Source: Shewanella woodyi ATCC 51908
GTDB taxonomy: Bacteria > Pseudomonadota > Gammaproteobacteria > Enterobacterales > Shewanellaceae
NCBI RefSeq assembly: GCF_000019525.1
Contig: NC_010506.1
Coordinates: 1,116,001 to 1,180,000, forward strand
Reading direction: 5' to 3'
DNA: 64,000 bases
This document shows, one piece after another, positions 11,277-48,290 of the stretch (position 1 is its first letter; every line of letters begins with the position of its first letter). Both the position numbers and the translations under genes were made by a program. Below the pieces are notes generated by a model that was given only the letters and a program-made list of their open reading frames with translations, made no database searches and was not told where the DNA came from.

Positions 11277-12047
11277 TTATTTAAGTTTATATAGCTCAAA
11301 GCGATTGACGCCGCTTTTTATCAAGTGAGAGTGCTGCTTGAAGGTTGAGGATTGCTGGAATTTAGCGATGCCATCAGGGGTATCCCACTCGACAAAAGTT
11401 AGCTGACCTGGAGCGATTAAGGGAGAAGCGTGCGCTTCAAAATTTGGATTATTCATCTTGTAGATAAACCGTCCCCCGAGTTCGTTAACAGACTCCTTTA
11501 TGTTGTCCATATATTGAAGGTAGTCGTTGGGGTTTGTTGGGTTTAGCCAAGCAACAGCTAAGGTATAGTGTTTATCTGGTTTGAAGGTGAGGTGGAGATC
11601 GCGCTCTAGCTCCTGAGTATAGATCTTAATTTCATTCCAACCTTGAGGGCGACTCTGTTTCATTGATGGCCAGTCTTGATGTGAAATAAGTTTGTTTTCA
11701 GCAGCTTTACTTGGCCAAGAGTAAAAGATTAATCCGTCGGGACTAAAATTGCCTACTAAAGTGTCGTCAATCTGGAGTAGCGCTTCGCGCTTAAGGCCAA
11801 AGCTCTCACCAAGGGGCAAGACCTCTTTATAGTATTTTTGCCGCGCTTGCTCACCCGCTTCTCTTCTCTTTGGCATTACGAGGGAAAACAGTTGCCCCTT
11901 AGAAAGGTTAATGCTTGTTTCTTTATGTGTAACACCTGTTTGTGGGCTGCTTTTGGGGGAGGAAACATTATTTGTGCAGGCGAGTAACCCAAGGGATAAG
12001 GTTAATAGCATTGTATGGGGGATGAGGCTTTTATTATTAATTCTCAT
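11277..12047 (-). CDS. Predicted lipoprotein with DUF1330-like repeats
   Basis: This 256-residue protein starts with a lipoprotein signal peptide whose lipobox is LLAC (Cys near residue 24). A Ser/Thr-rich linker follows. The remainder seems to contain two ferredoxin-like alpha/beta units, seen as alternating segments ending in FYSWPSKAAENKL and FVEWDTPDGIAKFQQSS. Each resembles the end of a DUF1330 or antibiotic-monooxygenase-like domain. The function is unknown. It is divergent from the LysR-type regulator at 12153 with a 105-bp shared promoter region, so that regulator may control it. Confidence 0.65.
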   Translation of the reverse strand: MRINNKSLIPHTMLLTLSLGLLACTNNVSSPKSSPQTGVTHKETSINLSKGQLFSLVMPKRREAGEQARQKYYKEVLPLGESFGLKREALLQIDDTLVGNFSPDGLIFYSWPSKAAENKLISHQDWPSMKQSRPQGWNEIKIYTQELERDLHLTFKPDKHYTLAVAWLNPTNPNDYLQYMDNIKESVNELGGRFIYKMNNPNFEAHASPLIAPGQLTFVEWDTPDGIAKFQQSSTFKQHSHLIKSGVNRFELYKLK

Positions 12048-20883: not shown

Positions 20884-22791
20884 ATGGCTCCTCGTTCAGA
20901 ACTACTTCCTGTGAGAGATCCCGATTTAATGGGGACTAAAGCCCATGTGATCACGCTATTGGGTTATCTTATCTTAATTATGGCGGTGGCACTGTCGGCG
21001 TTTCAGATCTGGCAAGGGATCACCTCGACCATCTCTGCAACCTATTTCAGGCCTGTGCATCTAAGCTGGGTGCTGGTGCTTATTTTCCTCCACTACCCTT
21101 TAGTTAAACATCAGCAGAGCCGCTTCTATCTCCCAGGCAGAGTGTTAGATGTGGCGCTTTGTGGATTAACCCTGTTTGCTGCCTATCGAATGTCGATATT
21201 TGACTATAACGATATCGACCACCTTCTTTATGGCTTAGGGACTGAAGATCTCGTGGCAGGGTGTCTATTACTAGCATTGTTGATGGAGGGCTGTCGCCGC
21301 ACTGTTGGCTGGGTGATGGTATTGATTGCCGCGATATTTCTCTCCTATAGTGCCTTTGGCGATCTGCTGCCTAGTGGCTTTGCAACTAAGTCCTATTCGC
21401 TACAGGAGTTGATCCAGTTCCAGATCTATTCAGCCAATGGCGTATTTGGTTCAGCCTTAGGGATCGCGGCAACGACCGTGTTTATCTTTGTGCTATTCGG
21501 CGCCTTTTTAGAGGTGACAGGGGCGGGTAAGTTCTTTATCGATTTAGCGTTTTCCATTGCGGGTAAATATCGCGGCGGGCCGGCTAAAGCGTCAGTGTTA
21601 GCCTCGGCTGGGCTTGGCTCTATCTCAGGCTCTGCCATTGCCAATACGGTGACCACAGGCTCTGTGACCATCCCCATGATGAAGACGTTAGGCTATAAAC
21701 CTGAGCAAGCGGCGGGGATTGAAGCGTCGGCATCGACAGGCGGGCAGATCATGCCGCCTATTATGGGCGCAGGTGCGTTTGTGATGGCGCAGTTTACCGG
21801 CGTTCCCTATAGCGAGATCATGCTGGCCTCTATCGCACCAGCGATCCTCTACTTTTTCTGTACCTTACTTTACGTGCACTTGATGGCGTGCAAGTTGAAT
21901 TTGCAAGCGGTGAGTCGCACCGAAGCCGTTTTGGCTGTGATGAAACAGGGCGCTCACCACTTAATTCCGCTGGCGTTAATCACAACACTATTGATGATGG
22001 CCTACTCGCCACTCCTTGTTGGGGTTGCTGGCTGCGCAGCTATCATAGTGACGGCAGCGCTGCGTAAACACAGCCGTATTGGGCTCACTAAGTTTATGCT
22101 TGGGATGAAAAATGGCGCGCTGATGGCGCTGCCTATCTCGGTGGCTTGTGGCGCGGCGGGGATTATTGTCGGTGTGGTAGGGCAAACTGGCATAGGTTTG
22201 CAGTTCACCCAGTTTGTGATGGAGTTTTCCGGTGGCTACATGCTAGTAGCGCTGGGGCTTATCAGTATTGTGGCGCTGATATTGGGGATGGGATTACCCG
22301 TTACCGCGGCCTATATTGTGCTTGCTGTGATGGCGGTGCCCATGCTGGGTGATTTTGGACTGCCGCTATTAACCGCTCATCTTATTGTGTTCTGGCTGTC
22401 GCAAACCTCCAATGTCACGCCACCCATTGCCCTTGCGGCATTTGCTGGGGCGGGGGTTGCTAACGCTAACCCGATGAGATCTTCAATAGAAGCGTTCAAA
22501 CTCGCTGGTGGCCTGTTTATTATCCCCATCATGATGGCTTACACCGACCTGCTTAATCCGGAGGCCAGTGCGTTCGAGTTTGCCTTTGCCATCGCCCAAA
22601 CAGCAGCAATTATTATCGCGATTGCAGTCTCTATCGAGGGCTACCTGTTGAGGCGTTTATCGAATATTGAGCGAGGCGTGGCCTTTATGACAGTGCCGCT
22701 TATTTTGCTTAATCCATTTGGGGCTGGGGCTATTGGAATATTACTGTTAGCGGGTTTGATCGCAGTGCAGTGGAAAGGGAGGTCAAGCTAA
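20884..22791 (+). CDS. TRAP transporter fused 4TM/12TM permease
   Basis: This 635-residue integral membrane protein fuses the small and large TRAP membrane subunits, as is normal for TAXI systems. It has about 16 hydrophobic segments. The large-subunit domain includes GSISGSAIANTVTTGSVTIPMMK and ASASTGGQIMPPIMGAGAFVMAQ, and later SQTSNVTPPIALAAFAGAGVA. These are the paired hairpin motifs that form the sodium and substrate sites. It works with the binding protein encoded 115 bp upstream. The start ATG follows AAGAGGAT. Confidence 0.95.
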   Translation: MAPRSELLPVRDPDLMGTKAHVITLLGYLILIMAVALSAFQIWQGITSTISATYFRPVHLSWVLVLIFLHYPLVKHQQSRFYLPGRVLDVALCGLTLFAAYRMSIFDYNDIDHLLYGLGTEDLVAGCLLLALLMEGCRRTVGWVMVLIAAIFLSYSAFGDLLPSGFATKSYSLQELIQFQIYSANGVFGSALGIAATTVFIFVLFGAFLEVTGAGKFFIDLAFSIAGKYRGGPAKASVLASAGLGSISGSAIANTVTTGSVTIPMMKTLGYKPEQAAGIEASASTGGQIMPPIMGAGAFVMAQFTGVPYSEIMLASIAPAILYFFCTLLYVHLMACKLNLQAVSRTEAVLAVMKQGAHHLIPLALITTLLMMAYSPLLVGVAGCAAIIVTAALRKHSRIGLTKFMLGMKNGALMALPISVACGAAGIIVGVVGQTGIGLQFTQFVMEFSGGYMLVALGLISIVALILGMGLPVTAAYIVLAVMAVPMLGDFGLPLLTAHLIVFWLSQTSNVTPPIALAAFAGAGVANANPMRSSIEAFKLAGGLFIIPIMMAYTDLLNPEASAFEFAFAIAQTAAIIIAIAVSIEGYLLRRLSNIERGVAFMTVPLILLNPFGAGAIGILLLAGLIAVQWKGRSS

Positions 22792-22795
22792 GAAG

Positions 22796-23250
22796 GGCGG
22801 GCTTTGCCCTGCTAGGGCGTTCGCAAGCTCACTGCGAGAGCGCTGCGCTTCGATAAATTCAAGAGATAGACGTTGTTGAGCTTCTCCGTGGTCTCCGTGT
22901 CCTCTGTGGTGAATCGCCTTTATCTTGTGATGTTTAAGGAAAGAGCAAAAGATGTTCTCACCACGGAGCGCTGCGCTACACGGAGGTAAAGATGGAGGAA
23001 GAGATTATGGCTTTTGGTTTTCTCCGTGGCCCTCTGTGTTCTCAGTGGTGAATGGCTTTTATCTTGGAAAGTGTAAAAGGACGGGCTTTGCCCTGCTAGG
23101 TTCTAGGGCGCTTCGCTTCGAGTTAAGGAAAGAGCAAAGGAAAGAGCAAAGGCAAGAGCAAAGGCAAGAGCACCTTTTACCACTGAGCGCTGCGCTTCAC
23201 GGAGGTAAAGATGGAGGAAGAGATTATGGCTTTCAAATTTATGCGGATTA
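22796..23250. repeat. Mosaic of dispersed palindromic repeat modules, copy 1
   Basis: This non-coding block directly follows the TRAP permease gene. It contains two copies of a CTCCGTGG...GTGGTGAA module (22882-22928 and 23021-23067) and two copies of a module that runs from CCACGGAG through GGAGGAAGAGATTATGG (22961-23016 and 23180-23234). The two modules are partly complementary and could fold together as long imperfect hairpins. GGGCTTTGCCC and GCGCTGCGC micro-palindromes lie between them. The same modules recur at 23.7-24.5 kb and 28.6-29.0 kb. A plus-strand open frame across 22952-23251 is a by-product of the repeats, not a gene. Confidence 0.85.
23127..23174. repeat. 12-bp tandem repeat, four units
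   Basis: Four head-to-tail units of the form GGMAAGAGCAAA occupy 48 bp. The first two units are identical. The third has C at position 3, and the fourth also has C there and ends CACC. It lies inside the repeat mosaic between two dispersed modules and probably arose by slippage. Confidence 0.85.
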
Positions 23251-23381
23251 AACATGAGAGCTTTCACTGTGGTTCCCATACCTAATTATGATGTTATCGA
23301 TTTATTTTTATGGGGTGTATAGATAACACATTGCATCCAGCCAATTATGGCAAGTGAAGTTAGTTAGGAGGAATTTGGATA

Positions 23382-23663
23382 ATGAAGCAAGAGCAAGATT
23401 TAACAGAGGCTGAACTCATCAACATAGGTGAAATTCTGGAGCAATATCAGGGGAAGATGTTGAAGGAAATTGAGTCCGTAATAGAAAAGCATGTTCAAGC
23501 CGCCAGCTCCGAGCTGGTGAGCACTAACCCAGAACTGGCTAATTACGACTATTTTTCGGCAGTGGTTTTGGGAGAGTTATTCTCTAAACTGCACGGAGGG
23601 AACAAAGATACAGCCGAAATAATCATGCACAACCTTCAAGGGCAGGCAGGCTTGAACAATTGA
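23382..23663 (+). CDS. Small acidic protein of unknown function
   Basis: This 93-residue protein has an excellent ribosome-binding site (TTAGGAGGAAT) 8 nt before its ATG, which argues that it is real despite being surrounded by repeats. It is acidic and helical, beginning MKQEQDLTEAELINIGEIL, with no signal peptide or membrane segment. The middle helix EIESVIEKHVQAASSELVS could mediate dimerisation. No family is recognised. It is isolated between the two repeat blocks and may be part of the accessory region. Confidence 0.7.
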   Translation: MKQEQDLTEAELINIGEILEQYQGKMLKEIESVIEKHVQAASSELVSTNPELANYDYFSAVVLGELFSKLHGGNKDTAEIIMHNLQGQAGLNN

Positions 23664-23680
23664 TCGTAAATCTGAGAAGG

Positions 23681-24560
23681 GCGGGCTTCGCCCTGCTAGG
23701 GCGGCACTGCGCGCCTGCTAGATCGCTGCGCTGCTAGTAAAAGCTGAGACGAATGTCGCTTGTGACTCATTTGAGTACAGAACGCGTTGCTCACGGAATA
23801 GCCTGCGGCTACAGGAACGCTTCGCTGACAGTAAAGCTAAACTGAGTGTTTGCATTGCCGTCATCCCGGGCTTGTTCCGGGATCCATTCTCCTTTGATGT
23901 TCTCCGTGGTCTTCGTGTTCTCAGTGGTGAATCGCTTTTATCTTGGTAAGCGAAGAAGAGCGGGCTTCGCTCTGCTAGGGCGGCACTGCGTGCCTGCTAG
24001 ATTGCTACGCTGCTAGAAGCTTGGATGAATATCGCCTGCTGACGACTCATTTGAGTACAGAACGCGTTGCTCACGGAATAGCCTGCGGCTACAGGAACGC
24101 TACGCTGACAGTAAAGCTAAACTGAGTATTTATCATTGCCGTCATCCCGGGCTTGTTCCGGGATCCATTCTCCTTTGATGTTCTCCGTGGTCCTCTGTGT
24201 TCTCAGTGGTGAATCGCTTTTATCTTGGTAAGCGAAGAAGAGCGGGCTTCGCTCTGCTAGGGCGGCACTGCGTGCCTGCTAGATCGCTGCGCTGCTAGAA
24301 AAAGCTGAGATGAATATCGCCTGCTGACGACTCATTTGAGTACAGAACGCGTTGCTCACGGAATAGCCTGCGGCTACAGGAACGCTGCGCTGACAGTAAA
24401 AGCTAAACTGAGTATTTGCATTGCCGTCATCCCGGGTTTGTTCCGTGATCCATTTTCCTTTGATGTTCTCCGTGGTCCTCTGTGTTCTCAGTGGCGAATC
24501 GCTTTTATCTTGGTAAGCGAAGAAGGGCGGGCTTCGCAAGCTCACTGCGAGTTAAAAGCC
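23681..24560. repeat. Tandem array of a ~282-bp unit (three copies plus a truncated fourth)
   Basis: Units begin with GCGGGCTTCG at 23681, 23960, 24242 and 24527, giving periods of 279, 282 and 285 bp. Each full unit contains, in order, GGGCTTCGCCC-type and GGCACTGCGTGCC palindromes, a TTTGAGTACAGAACGCG segment, AGCCTGCGGCT, a CATCCCGG...CCGGGATCC hairpin and a CTCCGTGG...GTGGTGAATCGCTTTTATC module. The fourth copy breaks off after about 34 bp. Open frames in this block on both strands are incidental. No coding function is seen. Confidence 0.92.
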
Positions 24561-24772
24561 TTAAGAAAAGAGAAATGTCTACGGAACTCCAGGATCCACT
24601 ACCCCTTGTAAAAAACAAAGATATTTTGACTAGGTAGGAAAATGGAGGCAAATTAAATGGCTGGGGAGATAAAGATATGCTTGTCTGGCTATAATTTGTG
24701 TTAAGTTTCTTACTCTGGAAGACTATTACGCATAAAAAGGACCGATTACACACCTGTCGTAGTAGGTACTCA

Positions 24773-28481: not shown

Positions 28482-28552
28482 TATTTAGTGAACTTTTTCA
28501 TTTTTTCATGGCCTCATCATATTCTAAATTAACATGATTTCATATTAGGTGA

Positions 28553-29040
28553 AGCTGAGAAGGGCGGTGAAGCTAAGAAGGGCGGGCTTCGCCCTGCTAG
28601 GGCGGCACTGCGTGCCTGCTAGAGCGTTCGCAAGCTCACTGCGAGATCGCTTCGCTGCTAGAAAAAGCTGAGATGAATGTCGCTTGCGACTCATTTGAGT
28701 ACAGAACGCGCTGCTCACGGAATAGCCTGCGGCTACAGGAACGCTTCGCTGACAGTAAAAGCAAACTGAGAGTTTGGCATTGCCGTCATCCCGGGCTTGT
28801 TCCGGGATCCATTGTTTGAAGCTGAGAAGGGCTTTGCCCTGCTAGGACGTTTGCAAGCTCACTGCGAGGGCGCTGCGAGTCAAAAACAAAGACTTAAGAC
28901 AAAAACAAAAGATGTTCTCACCACGGAGCGCTGCGCTACACGGAGGTAAAGCTGGAGGAAGAGATTATGGCTTTTGATTTTCTCCGTGGCCCTCTGTGTC
29001 CTCCGTGGTGAATCGCTTTTATTTTGTGGATTTAAAGAAG
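28553..29040. repeat. Mosaic of dispersed palindromic repeat modules, copy 2
   Basis: This block holds another copy of the 282-bp unit type (28582-28810), including the GGGCTTCGCCC, AGCCTGCGGCT and CATCCCGG...CCGGGATCC elements. It then carries the CCACGGAG...GATTATGG module (28921-28975) and the CTCCGTGG...GTGGTGAATCG module (28979-29025). The order matches the start of the 22.8-kb block. It lies just upstream of the aminotransferase gene and before the ATPase-DUF4435 pair, so repeats bracket the accessory genes. Confidence 0.88.
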
Positions 29041-29712
29041 CGAGAAAATGAGGAGGTAGTAATCTCTACTTTTTGATGGGAAATCGCTGTTAATGACTCT
29101 GCTTAGCTCTATTTAAAAGCTCCTAACACCACAAACCCTACCTAAATTGAAACTGATAGCTAGTTTAGGGTTCTCTTAACCTTATGATAATTAAGCTTAA
29201 TCAGTGAAATTGCTGATAGACATATTGTATACGGAACGATATATTGCCTCACAAATAACAAGGATGAAGCCTAATGCAGGCAGTGCCGATATCGCACCAT
29301 TAGCAACAGAGCATTAGCAGACACCTACATCAGGGACGATGTATCAATATTATGTGTTAACACCACAGCACCTTGATACCAATCACTACTACCTCCCTTA
29401 TCAGCTGTACCTTCCTTGTTGTTAGTTTTAAAGCAATAGAGCTAGGTGAACGCTGCGCTCACGGTTAACGGAACGCTTCACTCACAGAATGCTGCGCTTA
29501 CGGAGCACTGCACTCATGACAAAGCTTCTAGCTCTGGCTGGAATGACTAAAAACTCAGTATTTTAGTCGGTTATATGAAGTCCTAATCTTACGTTGTGGA
29601 GATAAAGCGACGAAGTGAGGGGGCATTATCCCATTTGGGATGGTTTTTAAGCTGTTAGGTTTCATTCTGTGTAGTGATACCTGAACCTGAAAATAAATAA
29701 GGAGATTGAACT
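29041..29712. other. Non-coding region upstream of the ATPase-DUF4435 pair
   Basis: This 672-bp stretch has no supported gene. At about 29444-29515 it holds a chain of degenerate GTGAACGCTGCGCTCAC-like micro-palindromes, which resemble those of the repeat blocks. The last 100 bp are AT-rich and should contain the promoter of the defence-like operon. An AAGGAG ribosome-binding site lies at its end. Confidence 0.5.
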
Positions 29713-31050
29713 TTGGAAAATAGAATAAGTGTTATCTCAGTTGATAAACTTTTTGGCTTTTTAAACCATAAAGTAGAAATAAAAGAAGAAGGCGTCACAT
29801 TCATTCATGGACCTAATGGTTGTGGTAAAACAACTTTTCTGAAATTAATAGCAAGTTTTTTTGAGTGGGATATAGCTAATCTAAATGATACTAATTTTGA
29901 ACAGATGTGTATTGAATTTCAAGATGAAAAGAAAATCACAATAGAGAAAACTATAAAAGTAAAGAAGTTTGAAAATGAAGAAGTAAAAACTCCTAACTTT
30001 ATTTTTAGACTATTTAAGAATAATGAAAATATTGAACTATACGAGTTTCACCGAAATCCTAAAGAAATTAGAATACCTCCATCACAATTAGATGAATACT
30101 TACCATTTCTACATCAGATAGGACCTAGACGGTGGGTCGATGGAAGAACGGATGAGGTTCTTTCATACCATGAGGTAATCGAAAGGTTTTCACATAGACT
30201 TCCATTCACTGGCAGAAAGAAGAGGCCAGAATGGCTGCAATCCCTTCAAGAAAATGCCAAGTTACACTTTGTACAAACTCAAAGGTTATTGAAGGTCAAT
30301 ATTGAGAATAGAGCTCACAGAACAGAGAAAAATGTTACCAATGTAATTGAAATTTATTCAGATGAAATAAAAAACAAGATCTCAAGATTATTGGCTGAGT
30401 CATCTGCAGTCTCTCAATCAAAAGACAGGTCATTTCCACAAAGGTTGCTCTCTATGTATTCAATAGAAGCGCTCTCAGAAGACAAAATAAGGAAAGATTA
30501 CGACGAAACTGAAGTCAAAATTGAGAAGTTGATGGAGGCTGGGTTGATTCAACAAGAGAAAAATCTTGCTTTACCTAGCAAGGCTTTTGAAGCAACAGAG
30601 AAGAAAGTATTAACACTCTACTTGCAAGATATAAATGAAAAACTAGCTGTTTTTGATGATTTGTTACTGAGGATAGAAACCTTTTTAAGCATAATAACTA
30701 AAAAGCTTAGAAATAAGAGTTTCAAAGTGAGTCAGCAGGATGGCTTTTTTATTGAAACAATTCAAGGTGAAAAACAAGTATTGAAACCAACTCAGCTATC
30801 TTCAGGCGAGCAACACGAGATTGTTCTGTTTTATGAGTTGATATTTAAAACAAGTGATAACTCTTTTTTCTTAATTGATGAACCTGAAATATCGTTACAC
30901 ATAGATTGGCAAAGACAATTCTTATCTGATATTTCAAAAATAGCTAGCTTAGGGCAGCACTCTTTTTTAGTAGCAACGCACTCACCACAAATTATTGGGA
31001 CTAGAAGAGATCTTGCTGTTTCACTTGATGGAGGCATTTTGAATGACTAG
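29713..31050 (+). CDS. AAA/ABC-type ATPase of a PARIS-like (AriA-like) defence pair
   Basis: This 445-residue ATPase has Walker A GPNGCGKTT (near residues 33-41), an ABC-type signature LSSGEQHEIVLF near 361, Walker B SFFLIDEPEISLH and the H-loop ATHSPQII. A helical insertion of about 200 residues separates the two halves. The start is a TTG with a strong AAGGAG site 8 nt upstream. It overlaps by 8 bp the following gene, which encodes a DUF4435 protein. An AAA ATPase plus a DUF4435/TOPRIM-like effector is the known composition of PARIS, in which AriA holds AriB inactive until a phage anti-restriction protein appears. Related OLD-like pairs share this layout, so PARIS is likely but not proven. 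Base composition is markedly AT-rich compared with core genes. Confidence 0.85.
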   Translation: MENRISVISVDKLFGFLNHKVEIKEEGVTFIHGPNGCGKTTFLKLIASFFEWDIANLNDTNFEQMCIEFQDEKKITIEKTIKVKKFENEEVKTPNFIFRLFKNNENIELYEFHRNPKEIRIPPSQLDEYLPFLHQIGPRRWVDGRTDEVLSYHEVIERFSHRLPFTGRKKRPEWLQSLQENAKLHFVQTQRLLKVNIENRAHRTEKNVTNVIEIYSDEIKNKISRLLAESSAVSQSKDRSFPQRLLSMYSIEALSEDKIRKDYDETEVKIEKLMEAGLIQQEKNLALPSKAFEATEKKVLTLYLQDINEKLAVFDDLLLRIETFLSIITKKLRNKSFKVSQQDGFFIETIQGEKQVLKPTQLSSGEQHEIVLFYELIFKTSDNSFFLIDEPEISLHIDWQRQFLSDISKIASLGQHSFLVATHSPQIIGTRRDLAVSLDGGILND

Positions 31051-31882
31051 TTGTTTAAGTCAAAGTGCTGAAGAGATTGTTACAGAAATTTCAATGTCAG
31101 AGTCAAAAAATCCTTGGCTAGTTGTTGAGGGAGATTCTGATGGAGTGTTCTTTTCAACTAAAAGACTTCATAAATCACCAAATACAATTGTCGCGCTAGG
31201 TTGGGAAAATGTCGTTGGTGTTATATCTCAAGTTATCGAGGAATCAATAACTAAGGCCGTTTTTGGGTTCATTGACCGTGACTATAGAGAGGAGTTAGGT
31301 GTTGTTGTTGATGAAAGCTATATTGTTACGACCGATTTTCGTGACTTAGAAATATCTCTTTTTGAATCATCATCTTTACATCGGTTAATTGTTGAATATG
31401 GCTCAAAATTCAAGCTTCCTTTAGATTCAAATGAAGAGGTAGATTTAGATGAAATTAAAGTAAAAATTTATTCTATAGCATCTAAAATGGGAAGGTTGAG
31501 GTATTTTAGTCTAAAGGAGGGGTATAACTATCCAATAAAAAAATTAGATTTTTCGAAGTTTATTGACCAAAAAACATTAGAGTTAGATGAGAGTAAATTA
31601 ATAAACCAAATTAATGCTAAAAGTGAAAATAAAATCAACTCTGATTTATTAAATACAATTCTTTCAGCCAAGCTGCCCACGACACTTTGTGATGCTAAAA
31701 ATATATGCAGTGGGCATGATGTAGTTGAGCTTCTAGGTTTAGCTCTAAAAAAAGTTTGGGGAACGAATAATTCAGGAGAAGTTGCTCGTGAAAAACTTGA
31801 ATCTTCTTTCAGAATTGGCTATTCAAATGAAGAGTTCTCTCAAACTACTATGTATAAAAAATTAAATGCTTTGTTGAGTTAA
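31043..31882 (+). CDS. DUF4435 (TOPRIM-like) effector of a PARIS-like pair (AriB-like)
   Basis: This 279-residue protein shows the DUF4435 pattern: an N-terminal WLVVEGDSDGVFF with the TOPRIM Glu, then AVFGFIDRDYREE with the acidic DxD, then YIVTTDFRDLEISLFES. These positions form the metal-binding nuclease centre in TOPRIM proteins. Its length fits AriB, the toxin of PARIS, which is reported to act on host tRNA when released. The ATG overlaps the ATPase gene by 8 bp, so the two are made from one message and probably in fixed ratio. A large hairpin with a T-rich tail lies about 130 bp downstream. Confidence 0.85.
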   Translation: MTSCLSQSAEEIVTEISMSESKNPWLVVEGDSDGVFFSTKRLHKSPNTIVALGWENVVGVISQVIEESITKAVFGFIDRDYREELGVVVDESYIVTTDFRDLEISLFESSSLHRLIVEYGSKFKLPLDSNEEVDLDEIKVKIYSIASKMGRLRYFSLKEGYNYPIKKLDFSKFIDQKTLELDESKLINQINAKSENKINSDLLNTILSAKLPTTLCDAKNICSGHDVVELLGLALKKVWGTNNSGEVAREKLESSFRIGYSNEEFSQTTMYKKLNALLS

Positions 31883-32014
31883 GAGAAAGGAATAATATTT
31901 AGGTCAGAGTAAATATAACCTCAACAACTTAAAACTTAGCCTAAAGCTACAATAACTCCCCGTTGGAAGTTGCCGAAATACGTGACAAAAATGCCGTATA
32001 GCCATAATGGATGA

Positions 32015-32068
32015 TGGCTAAGGCTCGGTGGGACATGGATGTCCCATCTGAGCTGTTAGGCTATTTTT
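32015..32068 (+). terminator. Large hairpin with T-rich tail after the ATPase-DUF4435 operon
   Basis: An 8-bp core stem (TGGGACAT/ATGTCCCA, 32029-32046) is extended by an outer imperfect stem that pairs GCTC with GAGC and CTAA with TTAG. It is followed by CTATTTTTGTTT. It is suitable as a terminator for the operon ending at 31882. The core palindrome also resembles the micro-hairpins seen further on. Confidence 0.65.
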
Positions 32069-32154
32069 GTTTAAGTATGAGGAATACAACTTCGTCGGGG
32101 CGGCAAGGGGAGATGCAAGAGGGGAATTGCTGTTGATCCCCTTATTGCCCTGGT

Positions 32155-32222
32155 GTGGAATGGAATTCCACGACGTTAGTTGTTAGACGTAGTCTAACAA
32201 TGAAGATTCAAGCGAAGCTTGA
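32155..32222. repeat. Micro-hairpin array A (three modules)
   Basis: Three short hairpins follow each other: GTGGAAT-GGA-ATTCCAC (32155-32171), GTTAGAC-GTA-GTCTAAC (32182-32198) and TCAAGC-GAA-GCTTGA (32208-32222). Stems are 6-7 bp and loops 3 nt. The first two are the reverse complements, with small changes, of two modules at 48274-48290 and 48247-48263. The array ends 10 bp before the duplicated csdE fragment. Confidence 0.9.
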
Positions 32223-32232
32223 TGAATTAAAG

Positions 32233-32397
32233 AATATTTGAAACTTGTTATTCAACAAGTCAGCGTAAACTAAACAGCAAAAGCCTTTATAGCCTTAGCC
32301 AAGGCAAACAACCCATTAGTCCGTGAGGGACTCAGTTGCCCTGTTAGCCCTAACATATCGAAATAACCCTCTATATCAAACCTTGCTATCTCAGCTG
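32233..32397 (-). pseudogene. Duplicated 3' end of csdE (gene fragment)
   Basis: This 165-bp segment matches 34140-34304 base for base without gaps, with about seven substitutions. The match covers the last 128 bp of the csdE reading frame and 37 bp beyond its stop codon. The fragment lacks the rest of the gene and cannot make a functional SufE-fold protein. Together with the intact copy it forms direct repeats that bracket the RAYT cassette (32398-34139). That suggests insertion at, or recombination through, the csdE 3' end. Confidence 0.92.
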
Positions 32398-32573: not shown

Positions 32574-33617
32574 ATGACTTTAGCTCGCCGGACATTGATT
32601 GATGCAGAAACAACGCCTTTCTACCACGTAATTAATCGTTGTGTGAGAAGGGCTTACCTCTGCGGTAGTGATGAGCTGACAGGTAAGAGTTTTGAACATC
32701 GACGTGGCTGGATTGTCGATAAAATCAAGGTTCTTTCTTCCATATTTTGTATTGATGTTTGTGCTTATGCGGTGATGAGTAACCACTATCATCTAGTGTT
32801 AAAAATTGACTTGAATGAAGTTAATGCATTAAGTCATCGAGATGTAATTAGTCGCTGGCAGCAGTTGTTTCATGGTCATGAGGTTGCCACTAAATACATG
32901 AAAGGTGAGGAACTCATTGAGGGAGAGCAGATACTACTTGATGGACTGATTGCTGAGTGGCAGGAACGTTTAGCTAGTATTAGTTGGTTTATGCGTTGCC
33001 TTAATGAGGAGGTTGCACGAAAGGCCAATCGCGAAGATGAGTGTAAAGGTGCTTTCTGGGAGGGACGTTTTAAGTCACAAGCATTACTTGATGAGCAAGC
33101 ACTTCTTGCATGTATGATGTATGTGGACTTAAACCCCATTAGAGCAGGGATTGCAGACTCGCTACAATCTTCCGATTTCACCTCAATTCAAGAGCGCATT
33201 TCTGAGCTAAATACAGCTGAGAATACTCAAGAAAAAGTACTAAAAATAGTAGATAAGAAAACAGTGTTCAAGACTGTTACGCCGTTAAAGCCCCTTGCTG
33301 AATTTGATGGAGCTACTCACCAGGTAACTCAACTAGGCATCCCATTTCACTTCTCTGATTACCTACAACTCATTGATTGGACTGGCAGAGCGATTAGGTA
33401 TGATAAGAAAGGTTCTATTGATTCAAGCCGCCCTAAGTTACTTAGTGAATTAGGCATTTCATCAGCTGCCTGGTTAACCTCAACACGAGAGTTTCGTCGT
33501 CAATACAGCGGAGTTAGTGGCCGTTGGGATGCAATGTGTAAATTTAAAAAGAAACATCAGAGTGGGAAATGGTGCAAAGGCAAAGCTTCTAGCCAAGCAC
33601 TTCATCCATCACCATAA
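32574..33617 (+). CDS. REP-associated tyrosine transposase (RAYT, Y1/IS200-like)
   Basis: This 347-residue protein has the RAYT layout: an N-terminal FYHVINRCVRRAYLCG segment, the HUH motif in MSNHYHLVLKI near residue 72, and FWEGRFKSQALLDEQALLACMMYVDLNPIRAGI near residues 160-190. The catalytic Tyr is probably the one in CMMYVDLNP or a nearby helix. RAYTs nick single-stranded DNA at palindromic REP elements and are thought to spread them. The ATG follows a GGGGGAG site. The gene is flanked by AAAGACAGGACA-type repeats and by the csdE duplication. Confidence 0.92.
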   Translation: MTLARRTLIDAETTPFYHVINRCVRRAYLCGSDELTGKSFEHRRGWIVDKIKVLSSIFCIDVCAYAVMSNHYHLVLKIDLNEVNALSHRDVISRWQQLFHGHEVATKYMKGEELIEGEQILLDGLIAEWQERLASISWFMRCLNEEVARKANREDECKGAFWEGRFKSQALLDEQALLACMMYVDLNPIRAGIADSLQSSDFTSIQERISELNTAENTQEKVLKIVDKKTVFKTVTPLKPLAEFDGATHQVTQLGIPFHFSDYLQLIDWTGRAIRYDKKGSIDSSRPKLLSELGISSAAWLTSTREFRRQYSGVSGRWDAMCKFKKKHQSGKWCKGKASSQALHPSP

Positions 33618-34139
33618 AATGAGGAGAAGCCGAAAAAAGCAAAAGACAGACAAAAGACAGGACAATCACACCTTCTGCCTTTTGAGCTCCTCTCTTTTTC
33701 AAAGCAAAAGATGGTTTGCAGAGATAATCACAATACTTTGAGTTCAATGAAGCTTGGTAAATTCCGAGCACTGTTGCAACAGTATGCGTTGATGGCACGG
33801 ATGCCATCGTCGAGCCCTCAGGGATGAGTTGATGGCGTCCTACTGAGGTAACAGTGCATAAGCCTGCGGCAAGCAATAGATACAAAAACACCTGCTGCCA
33901 ATAAAGAATCAAAACAGGTATCTCATCTGCCTGCCGACGTAGCTTACCTAAATGGGAAGGGTCAGGTTATTCAGGGTTGAAAAAGACAGAAGAGCCATGC
34001 CTTCATTGCTACTTCAAATACCGACTAAGGCTATAAAAAACCACGACCTTAATCCAAACGAAGTTTGGAAAGCACTACCCAAGCCCCAAATCACATTGGG
34101 CATAATTGCCCATTTAACCTTCCCAATGACCCAATCAAA
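33618..34139. repeat. Right flank of the RAYT cassette, REP-like palindromes
   Basis: This non-coding stretch contains diverged AAAGACAGGACA-type repeats at 33653 and 33982. It also has two clean palindromes: ACTGTT-GC-AACAGT at 33770-33783 and GATGGCA-CGGA-TGCCATC at 33791-33808. The latter is followed by a partly complementary stretch up to about 33840. No gene is supported. It ends where the 165-bp csdE duplication begins. Confidence 0.7.
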
Positions 34140-34176
34140 AATATTTGAAACTTGTTATTCAACAAGTCAGCGCAAA

Positions 34177-34617
34177 CTAAACAGAAAAAGCCTTTATAGC
34201 CTTAGCCAAGGCAAACAAACCATTAGTGCGTGAGGGACTCAGCTGCCCCGTTAGCCCTAACATATCGAAATAACCCTCTATATCAAACCTTGCAATCTCA
34301 GCTGAGGTTTTACCCTGACAGGCGGTCAATAACAGGCCAATCAGTCCCTTCACAATGCGTGCATCGCTATCGGCGACAAAGTAGTGTTTATCCTCGATTA
34401 CACTGTGATAGAGCCAAGCACTGCTCTCGCAGCCTCTGACCTGCGCTGATTCGACCCGAAAGGCCTCATCAAGCTTTGGTAGCGCTTTGCCGAGCAACAT
34501 GATTTGACGATAGCGCTCCTGCCAGTTACTGGCTTGCTCAAACAACGGCAATATCTCACTGCTGTCGAGCTTAAGGGCTAAAAATGTTTCCTGTGAGGGT
34601 TGTGATACTTGACTCAT
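34177..34617 (-). CDS. csdE: SufE/CsdE-family sulfur acceptor
   Basis: This 146-residue protein is a complete SufE-fold protein with the acceptor Cys in QVRGCESSAWL near residue 62. The FDIEGYFDMLGLTGQLSPSRTNGL segment is also typical. It accepts persulfide sulfur from the cysteine desulfurase CsdA, encoded just upstream in the same orientation after a 243-bp gap. It then passes the sulfur to TcdA or other acceptors. Its 3' end is duplicated at 32233-32397. The CsdE rather than SufE assignment rests on the neighbouring CsdA-type enzyme and the absence of sufBCD here. Confidence 0.9.
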   Translation of the reverse strand: MSQVSQPSQETFLALKLDSSEILPLFEQASNWQERYRQIMLLGKALPKLDEAFRVESAQVRGCESSAWLYHSVIEDKHYFVADSDARIVKGLIGLLLTACQGKTSAEIARFDIEGYFDMLGLTGQLSPSRTNGLFALAKAIKAFSV

Positions 34618-48160: not shown

Positions 48161-48290
48161 GTCAGGTTGCGGCTGACGGTTCGCTTTACAGCGGAAAGTA
48201 ATCAAACTTCGTTTGATAAATCTATCAGGCTGCGCCTGAACTTTAAGTTAGACTGCGTCTAACAACTAACGTCGTGGGATTCCATCCCAC
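48161..48290. repeat. Micro-hairpin array B (five modules)
   Basis: Short palindromes follow each other at a spacing of 22-27 bp: a weak 5-bp stem at 48161-48177, ATCAAAC-TTC-GTTTGAT (48201-48217), TCAGGC-TGC-GCCTGA (48225-48239), GTTAGAC-TGC-GTCTAAC (48247-48263) and GTGGGAT-TCC-ATCCCAC (48274-48290). The last two are reverse-complement relatives of array A at 32155-32198. The array lies between the convergent 3' ends at 48154 and 48301 and could act as a terminator region or REP cluster. Confidence 0.92.

Follow-up and report, generated by a model that had tools for sequence, protein, structure and literature searches.

A hairpin array of Shewanella woodyi is the 3' tail of a genus-wide structured repeat that may mark the edge of exchangeable DNA

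Introduction

Three short hairpins follow one another within 68 bp of the genome of Shewanella woodyi ATCC 51908, beside a RAYT-like gene, and the locus raises the question of what such an array is: a folded element under selection, a substrate of the neighbouring gene, or a part of something larger. The original prediction favoured the first two answers. All positions given here refer to the window, that is, the whole stretch of 64,000 nucleotides that was analysed, in which the array (array A) occupies positions 32155–32222.

The hairpins of array A

The hairpins of array A are real and go beyond chance. Module 1 (32155–32171) reads GTGGAAT-GGA-ATTCCAC, a 7-3-7 hairpin of 17 nt; the second hairpin (32180–32200) is TTGTTAGAC-GTA-GTCTAACAA (9-3-9, 21 nt), and the third (32208–32222) is TCAAGC-GAA-GCTTGA (6-3-6, 15 nt). 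Three modules of about 17 nt and 7-3-7 layout had been claimed, and the hairpins are indeed present, but their sizes are unequal. Perfect triloop hairpins with a stem of at least 6 number 154 per 400 kb in an evenly spaced sample of this genome, and therefore three of them within 68 bp (P about 3e-6 per place at the sample rate, or about 0.003 for the 64-kb window) are not expected by chance. Reverse-oriented relatives, reported near 48.2 kb, were located at 48201–48290 (array B), where an A-T pair of module 1 is replaced by a G-C pair (GTGGAAT/ATTCCAC in array A, GTGGGAT/ATCCCAC in array B) exactly as described.

A dispersed repeat with a hairpin tail

A DNA search of the S. woodyi genome with array A yielded 16 matches at E ≤10, of which five, counting the array itself, had E <1e-3. 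Extension of the query in the 5' direction gave nine matches in the same genome at E ≤0.01 and revealed a larger repeat, placed here at 31946–32174, whose profile matches 31946–32222 with 283 bits. Array A is the 3' tail of this larger structured repeat, a point missed by the original prediction. In other surroundings, many copies align with the query over positions of about 303–331 to 563–571, that is, from the 5' end of the element to just past module 1, and since copies elsewhere end there, the further tail hairpins lie outside the repeat proper. The parts of the repeat in the window, and its relative array B, are as follows.

31902–31913, plus strand: GGTCAGAGTAAA motif 5' of the core (motif search)
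31946–32174, plus strand: a copy of the structured, dispersed repeat, made up of core and module 1 (profile match, copies in the same genome and the genus, fold)
31958–32100, plus strand: outer stem closing the TwoAYGGAY-type domain, 31958–31972 with 32087–32100 (helices 1 and 2, single-copy folds)
32000–32019, plus strand: hairpin 1, with an AUGGAU loop (helix 7 of the consensus fold)
32029–32046, plus strand: hairpin 2, with a ACAUGGAUGU apex (helix 9 of the consensus fold)
32115–32148, plus strand: long 3' hairpin (helix 10 of the consensus fold)
32155–32171, plus strand: module 1, the final helix of the repeat (consensus-fold helices 11 and 12)
32180–32200, plus strand: tail hairpin with a C-GTA-G loop (hairpin count)
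32208–32222, plus strand: tail hairpin with a C-GAA-G loop (hairpin count)
48201–48290, minus strand: array B, a tail only, comprising module 1 and three C-GNA-G hairpins without the core (hairpin listing, profile search for the core)

The repeat, which looks modular, is spread over the genus: a match at E ≤1e-3 exists in 118 of 129 genomes, about five candidates having been scored per genome, so that copy numbers are to be taken as minima. Across the order, an inner-domain model matches 64 of 345 genomes, in 12 of 108 genera. Beyond the genus such matches fall mostly in two genera (g12 and g35), and one genome each of g29 and g35 (G229 and G343) holds at least nine of them. No description of the repeat was found in the literature searched.

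In 64 tails of about 260 nt there are 96 C-GNA-G hairpins, counted with at least 6 of 7 pairs required, and 15 tails hold none. Their density amounts to 5.8 per kb in the tails against 0.02 per kb and strand in the background, or about 290 times (800-kb sample, two genomes). The variable loop base is A in 39, C in 37, T in 12 and G in 8, and the commonest stems (TTAGAC, TCAGGC, TCAAAC, TCAAGC and CCAAAC, each with its complement) differ by paired changes. As a DNA mini-hairpin, C(GNA)G is extraordinarily stable. The idea that C-GNA-G hairpins form a free REP family throughout the S. woodyi genome was rejected: they account for 3 of 53 perfect triloop hairpins with stems of at least 7 in 400 kb, and two of these three belong to the tails of copies C1 and C2.

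A conserved fold on one strand

The consensus fold of 64 aligned copies comprises 53 pairs, 40 of which show changes on both sides. Paired cells make up 96.8%, against 83.4% in shuffles (0 of 500 as high), a control inflated by sequence relatedness, and at most 50.0% when partners are slid, a control that retains relatedness but whose structure was derived from the same sequences; double-change cells number 463, against 115 when shuffled and at most 66 when slid. With 53 pairs, 40 of them doubly changed, the selection for a folded element that had been proposed from array A is strongly supported, and what might have spoken against it was not encountered, as copies occur in those 118 genomes and substitutions mostly preserve pairing rather than breaking it equally often. 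The non-standard cells of the 64 copies are 245 G-U, 20 A-C and 86 others, and the shuffled alignment gives 389 G-U and 185 A-C, so that composition accounts for a bias toward G-U of about 2:1, against the 12:1 observed. The excess of G-U over A-C therefore favours folding of the given strand, as in an RNA, and points to an RNA-like core fold on this (transcript) strand. On the other hand, a single copy folds unusually strongly both as RNA (z -6.2) and as DNA (z -8.3), and single-stranded DNA of the given strand is therefore also a possible folding molecule. Comparison of the copies shows that one strand conserves the outer stem, a TwoAYGGAY-type domain with two GGA-loop hairpins, the 3' hairpin and module 1, after which comes a variable string of C-GNA-G hairpins.

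Resemblance to TwoAYGGAY and to CsrA sites

The inner domain resembles the TwoAYGGAY RNA (RF01731) in having two AYGGAY-loop hairpins inside a multistem, and helices 7–9 of the consensus fold are 94.9–98.7% paired. A scan of 20 loci with RF01731 gave one match above the 43-bit gathering score (L062, 48.0), 11 at 35.7–42.5, and 8 loci without a match at E ≤0.1. The S. woodyi genome yields five matches at E ≤1, all below the 43-bit cut-off (best 41.5, window copy 31.9), no matches at E ≤1 were obtained in 14 control genomes, and an Rfam scan of the whole window at the gathering threshold gave 0 matches. Unlike TwoAYGGAY, the Shewanella domain forms part of a longer repeat, which also contains a 3' hairpin, a module 1 with GGA and a hairpin tail and which has many copies per genus. 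Two loci, L124 (about 11600–11690) and L045 (near the end of metH), apparently carry one simple hairpin in place of the inner TwoAYGGAY domain and keep the outer stem, the 3' hairpin and module 1. In the window, just 3' of the RAYT gene, a second AYGGAY-type hairpin pair lies at 33780–33850 (GATGGCACGGATGCCATC and CTCAGGGATGAG), and L123, L127 and L129 have hairpins of similar look close to the GNAT gene.

The GGA triplet is kept in the loops of hairpin 1 (63/64), hairpin 2 (62/64) and module 1 (50/64). These loops resemble CsrA sites and may be candidates for binding. TwoAYGGAY has been proposed to bind CsrA (PMC4333381), and PMC7652899 gives RUACARGGAUGU as the CsrA SELEX consensus, with ligands that mostly have four or fewer contiguous pairs. 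Two CsrA-family matches exist in the S. woodyi genome, a strong one and another that only just exceeds the cut-off and has its neighbours in frame. It could thus be imagined that the repeats are a CsrA-binding RNA family spread as a CsrB-like sponge, whose GGA hairpins would titrate CsrA and whose nearness to variable genes would be incidental. The conserved GGA loops, the ACAUGGAUGU apex of hairpin 2 set beside the SELEX consensus, the proposal for TwoAYGGAY and the CsrA-family genes are in its favour; the window copy, with neither a promoter-like nor a terminator-like site on the plus strand at array A, gives no sign of a transcript of its own, each copy offers two or three sites only, and the stems exceed the at most four contiguous pairs typical of the SELEX ligands, which leaves this reading improbable. 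In the same way, the repeat shares with CsrB/RsmZ-type RNAs the GGA in hairpin loops close to the SELEX consensus, but differs from them in that each copy has no more than two or three such loops, in its many scattered copies and, in the window, in the lack of any sign of a promoter or terminator of its own.

Copies between conserved and variable DNA

Neighbouring cores less than 4 kb apart are divergent in 19 cases, one of which (L082) has an overlap of 46 bases and may be one self-complementary stretch, tandem in 25 and convergent in 2 (one duplicate locus removed; divergent against convergent, p 0.0002). Around 104 cores, the ORF on the 5' side is codirectional in 47 and opposite in 57 (p 0.38), and the ORF on the 3' side is opposite, and thus convergent, in 62, codirectional in 39 and absent in 3 (p 0.03). 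The idea that the hairpins belong to a 3' UTR, where they would stabilise or terminate the mRNA of a neighbouring gene, draws on this excess of convergent 3' neighbours, on the placement of tails at gene 3' ends and on a weak terminator-like site on the minus strand at 32222–32208 (shuffles mean 0.9). It is very unlikely, given that the split of the 5' genes shows that the element is not as a rule the 3' UTR of the 5' gene, and that the conserved fold lies on the strand antisense to the convergent neighbour. Cassettes of a gene plus a 3' element, as a rule, were likewise rejected from the 47 codirectional and 57 opposite 5' genes.

Two loci were compared between genomes. The first comprises VC0807, present in 22 genomes, and a related GNAT gene, which 41 genomes match at E ≤1e-25; in 16 genomes both lie on one stretch. 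Where the stop-to-stop gap between the two genes is 101, 163 or 229 nt, the core is present in 0 of 3 and tail pieces in two; where it is 621–4586 nt, the core is present in 12 of 13 (Fisher p 0.007 against the short gaps). Locus L231 (G108) has long DNA between the genes with tail pieces only and without the core. As read from coordinates, tails point toward VC0807 in 12 of 12 cases and toward the GNAT gene in 6 of 6. In L121 and L122 the core is separated from the GNAT gene by two further ORFs, and L127 and L129 have the core and no ORF of at least 90 aa between VC0807 and GNAT genes. The window's own VC0807–GNAT site holds tail B and an EAL gene without the core. The second locus was built from the L183 element, whose 3' neighbour is flavin-reductase-like by eye, and from 15 other genomes matching that gene. 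A core match is present in 13 of the 15, among them L299 with only a 16.6-bit fragment; of the other two, L297 gave just two short blastn pieces and L296 none. In this set, chosen for the right-hand gene and with some stretches that end a few hundred bases to the left (L304), the point at which homology to L183 starts is 1430–1493, the 5' end of the element, for 12 of the 15 genomes; for L299 and L300 it lies within the element, and for L296 at the gene. Homology to the left flank of L183 was found in 0 of 15. Copies at the two loci sit between the 3' end of a conserved gene, against which the tail lies, and DNA on the 5' side that differs between genomes. No insertion event with both breakpoints was found among the loci compared, and no recombinase was tied to the repeat.

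An alternative reading is a non-autonomous, MITE-like mobile repeat that accumulates at permissive intergenic sites, the adjacent variable genes being ordinary hotspot content and the element having no part in exchange. This can be entertained as a tentative possibility, as it agrees with the dispersed mosaic copies, their clear 5' and 3' ends, the cores without a cargo ORF (L127, L129) and the lack of an orientation rule for the 5' gene. Random insertion, however, would be expected to give neither the outward orientation of 19 against 2 nor the loss of synteny at the 5' edge of the element in 12 of 15 genomes, and the degree of fold conservation requires selection or constant re-copying. Divergent cores as the ends of one composite transposon were rejected, since 7 of 9 pairs are alike at 0.63–0.71, against a mean of 0.69 (sd 0.09) for unrelated cores; the other two are more alike than average (L125 0.82, L137 0.86).

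Neighbourhood and cargo

The surroundings of array A contain the following features.

29713–31882, plus strand: PARIS-like pair, the variable neighbour, with an AriA-like AAA ATPase (29713–31050) and an AriB/DUF4435-like gene (31043–31882) (family and PADLOC search)
32230–32397, no strand assigned: copy of the sufE 3' end, 95% to 34137–34304, directly after the tail (repeat search)
32574–33617, plus strand: RAYT-like gene with its own flanking repeats (NF047646 with 42.2 bits, cut-off 80; no Pfam match)
34177–34617, minus strand: sufE-like conserved neighbour (PF02657)

The order in the window is thus PARIS-like genes, GGTCAGAGTAAA motif, element, tail and sufE 3'-end copy. A direct repeat of 168 bases (32230–32397 and 34137–34304, 95% identical), which holds the sufE 3' end, flanks the RAYT gene; the gene thus lies between the two copies, as an insertion accompanied by a long duplication. 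At 22700–24600 and 28500–29500, between variable genes, there are several further families of interspersed repeats that have short hairpins.

Divergent cores 300–4000 bases apart form 15 pairs with 17 ORFs of at least 100 aa between them (one pair without an ORF). Against PADLOC at E ≤1e-10, 6 of 15 scanned ORFs gave a match, compared with 2 of 30 random ORFs taken from unbiased samples (p 0.011), the six being capP-like (L122), PDC-S20 (L133, L216), PDC-S31 (L137), AriA-like (L211) and RT-protease/LmuA-like (L218). Cargo of tandem cores gave a match in 1 of 12 scanned ORFs (of 23), and both kinds pooled gave 7 of 27 against 2 of 30 (p 0.07). A TIR-TM ORF of defence type (L131:6544–7575) lies beside but not between cores and was left out of the count. 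The enrichment of defence genes in the cargo between cores is suggestive.

Links to RAYT genes

From their place beside the RAYT gene, the hairpins of array A had been proposed as candidate REP-like substrates, and this could not be upheld as the main reading. The RAYT gene is flanked by a repeat of its own, of AAAGACAGGACAGCCAT type (32402, 32483, 33653 and 33982); no GTAG was read at the hairpin feet of arrays A and B, the only GTAG of array A lying inside the loop of the second hairpin; RAYT loci elsewhere in the S. woodyi genome show other repeated ends; and 11 other RAYT loci of this genome contain 3 C-GNA-G hairpins in 42 kb on both strands, near the 1.7 or so given by the background. 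CGTC REPs, which according to PMC3733652 have a CGTC tag, a stem of 8–9 and a loop of 4–5, were rejected as well: arrays A and B read CGTC beside module 1 on the minus strand, but with a stem of 7 and a loop of 3, and other copies continue with GACT or GACC. In general, the Shewanella repeat is like REP/BIME and other RAYT-associated repeats in forming dispersed intergenic palindromes in strings and in the GGGGTCAGAGTAAA motif common to some RAYT genes; it is unlike them in the lack of a GTAG foot, in stems and loops that differ from those of the CGTC families, in the lack of enrichment at RAYT loci and in its RNA-like multi-helix core.

A weaker link to another RAYT class, and an origin driven by it, are possible. 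As in REP systems, a RAYT of this kind would act on single-stranded DNA, cutting it at the 5' motif and at the hairpins. In line with this, 9 of 96 cores, the window copy among them, have CAGAGTAA in the 130 nt on their 5' side, always on the strand of the core (none on the opposite strand; 0.21 expected), and the DNA fold reaches a z of -8.3. The GGTCAGAGTAAA motif was found at 21 places in 5 of 6 genomes, where four loci besides L246, which is the window, hold a core or core piece; this search also placed GGGGTCAGAGTAAA directly before a RAYT gene in L260, with a RAYT or a piece of one within about 1.5 kb in L253 and L247. The motif fits GGGGWSAS, which PMC3733652 reports for the TIRs of RAYT-like genes. 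Against such an origin, the motif is missing from 87 of the 96 cores, the 350 nt around RAYT matches in the loci scanned contain no CAGAGTAA, the adjacent RAYT gene and others have different flanking repeats, and there is no GTAG foot, all of which makes it distinctly unlikely.

Discussion

The most likely description of array A is that it belongs to a structured repeat of the TwoAYGGAY class that marks the border of exchangeable DNA and possibly has a function there. Sequence comparison establishes the fold, the spread and the position at two loci; what we infer beyond this is a role in exchange, transcription and the binding of CsrA. The repeat would be a recombination or insertion boundary at which accessory genes, here the PARIS-like pair, are gained, lost or exchanged; its fold would work as RNA if transcribed, and its GGA hairpins may bind CsrA. 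Taken as a whole, the proposal of a genus-wide boundary element for accessory-gene exchange, with array A as its tail, is evenly poised in our judgement, and the lack of a recombinase tied to the repeat and of an insertion event with both breakpoints, the cargo-less cores (L127, L129), the core-less long VC0807–GNAT DNA of L231, the pooled cargo value (p 0.07), the low likeness of most divergent pairs and the missing promoter-like and terminator-like sites on the plus strand at array A were counted against it. A bolder version is unlikely: the repeat would be the docking site of an undescribed gene-exchange system, in which accessory genes, often single-gene defences, are inserted and replaced where a folded RNA or single-stranded element has its 5' edge, the tail staying anchored to the conserved gene and the fold being recognised by a machinery that perhaps includes a RAYT-class enzyme. 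In integron cassette arrays, too, a folded element (attC) borders exchangeable genes. Unlike in those arrays, the orientation of the cargo at the Shewanella repeat is not fixed, and no attC arm order was noticed by eye in the repeat.

These results reach beyond array A. A little-studied Rfam motif becomes linked to a large and strongly covarying repeat family in experimentally tractable bacteria, and the published proposal of CsrA binding by TwoAYGGAY becomes testable in CsrA-bearing organisms. Finally, the rule of position seen where loci were compared (conserved gene, then tail, element and variable DNA) offers defined places in which to seek gene exchange and defence genes.
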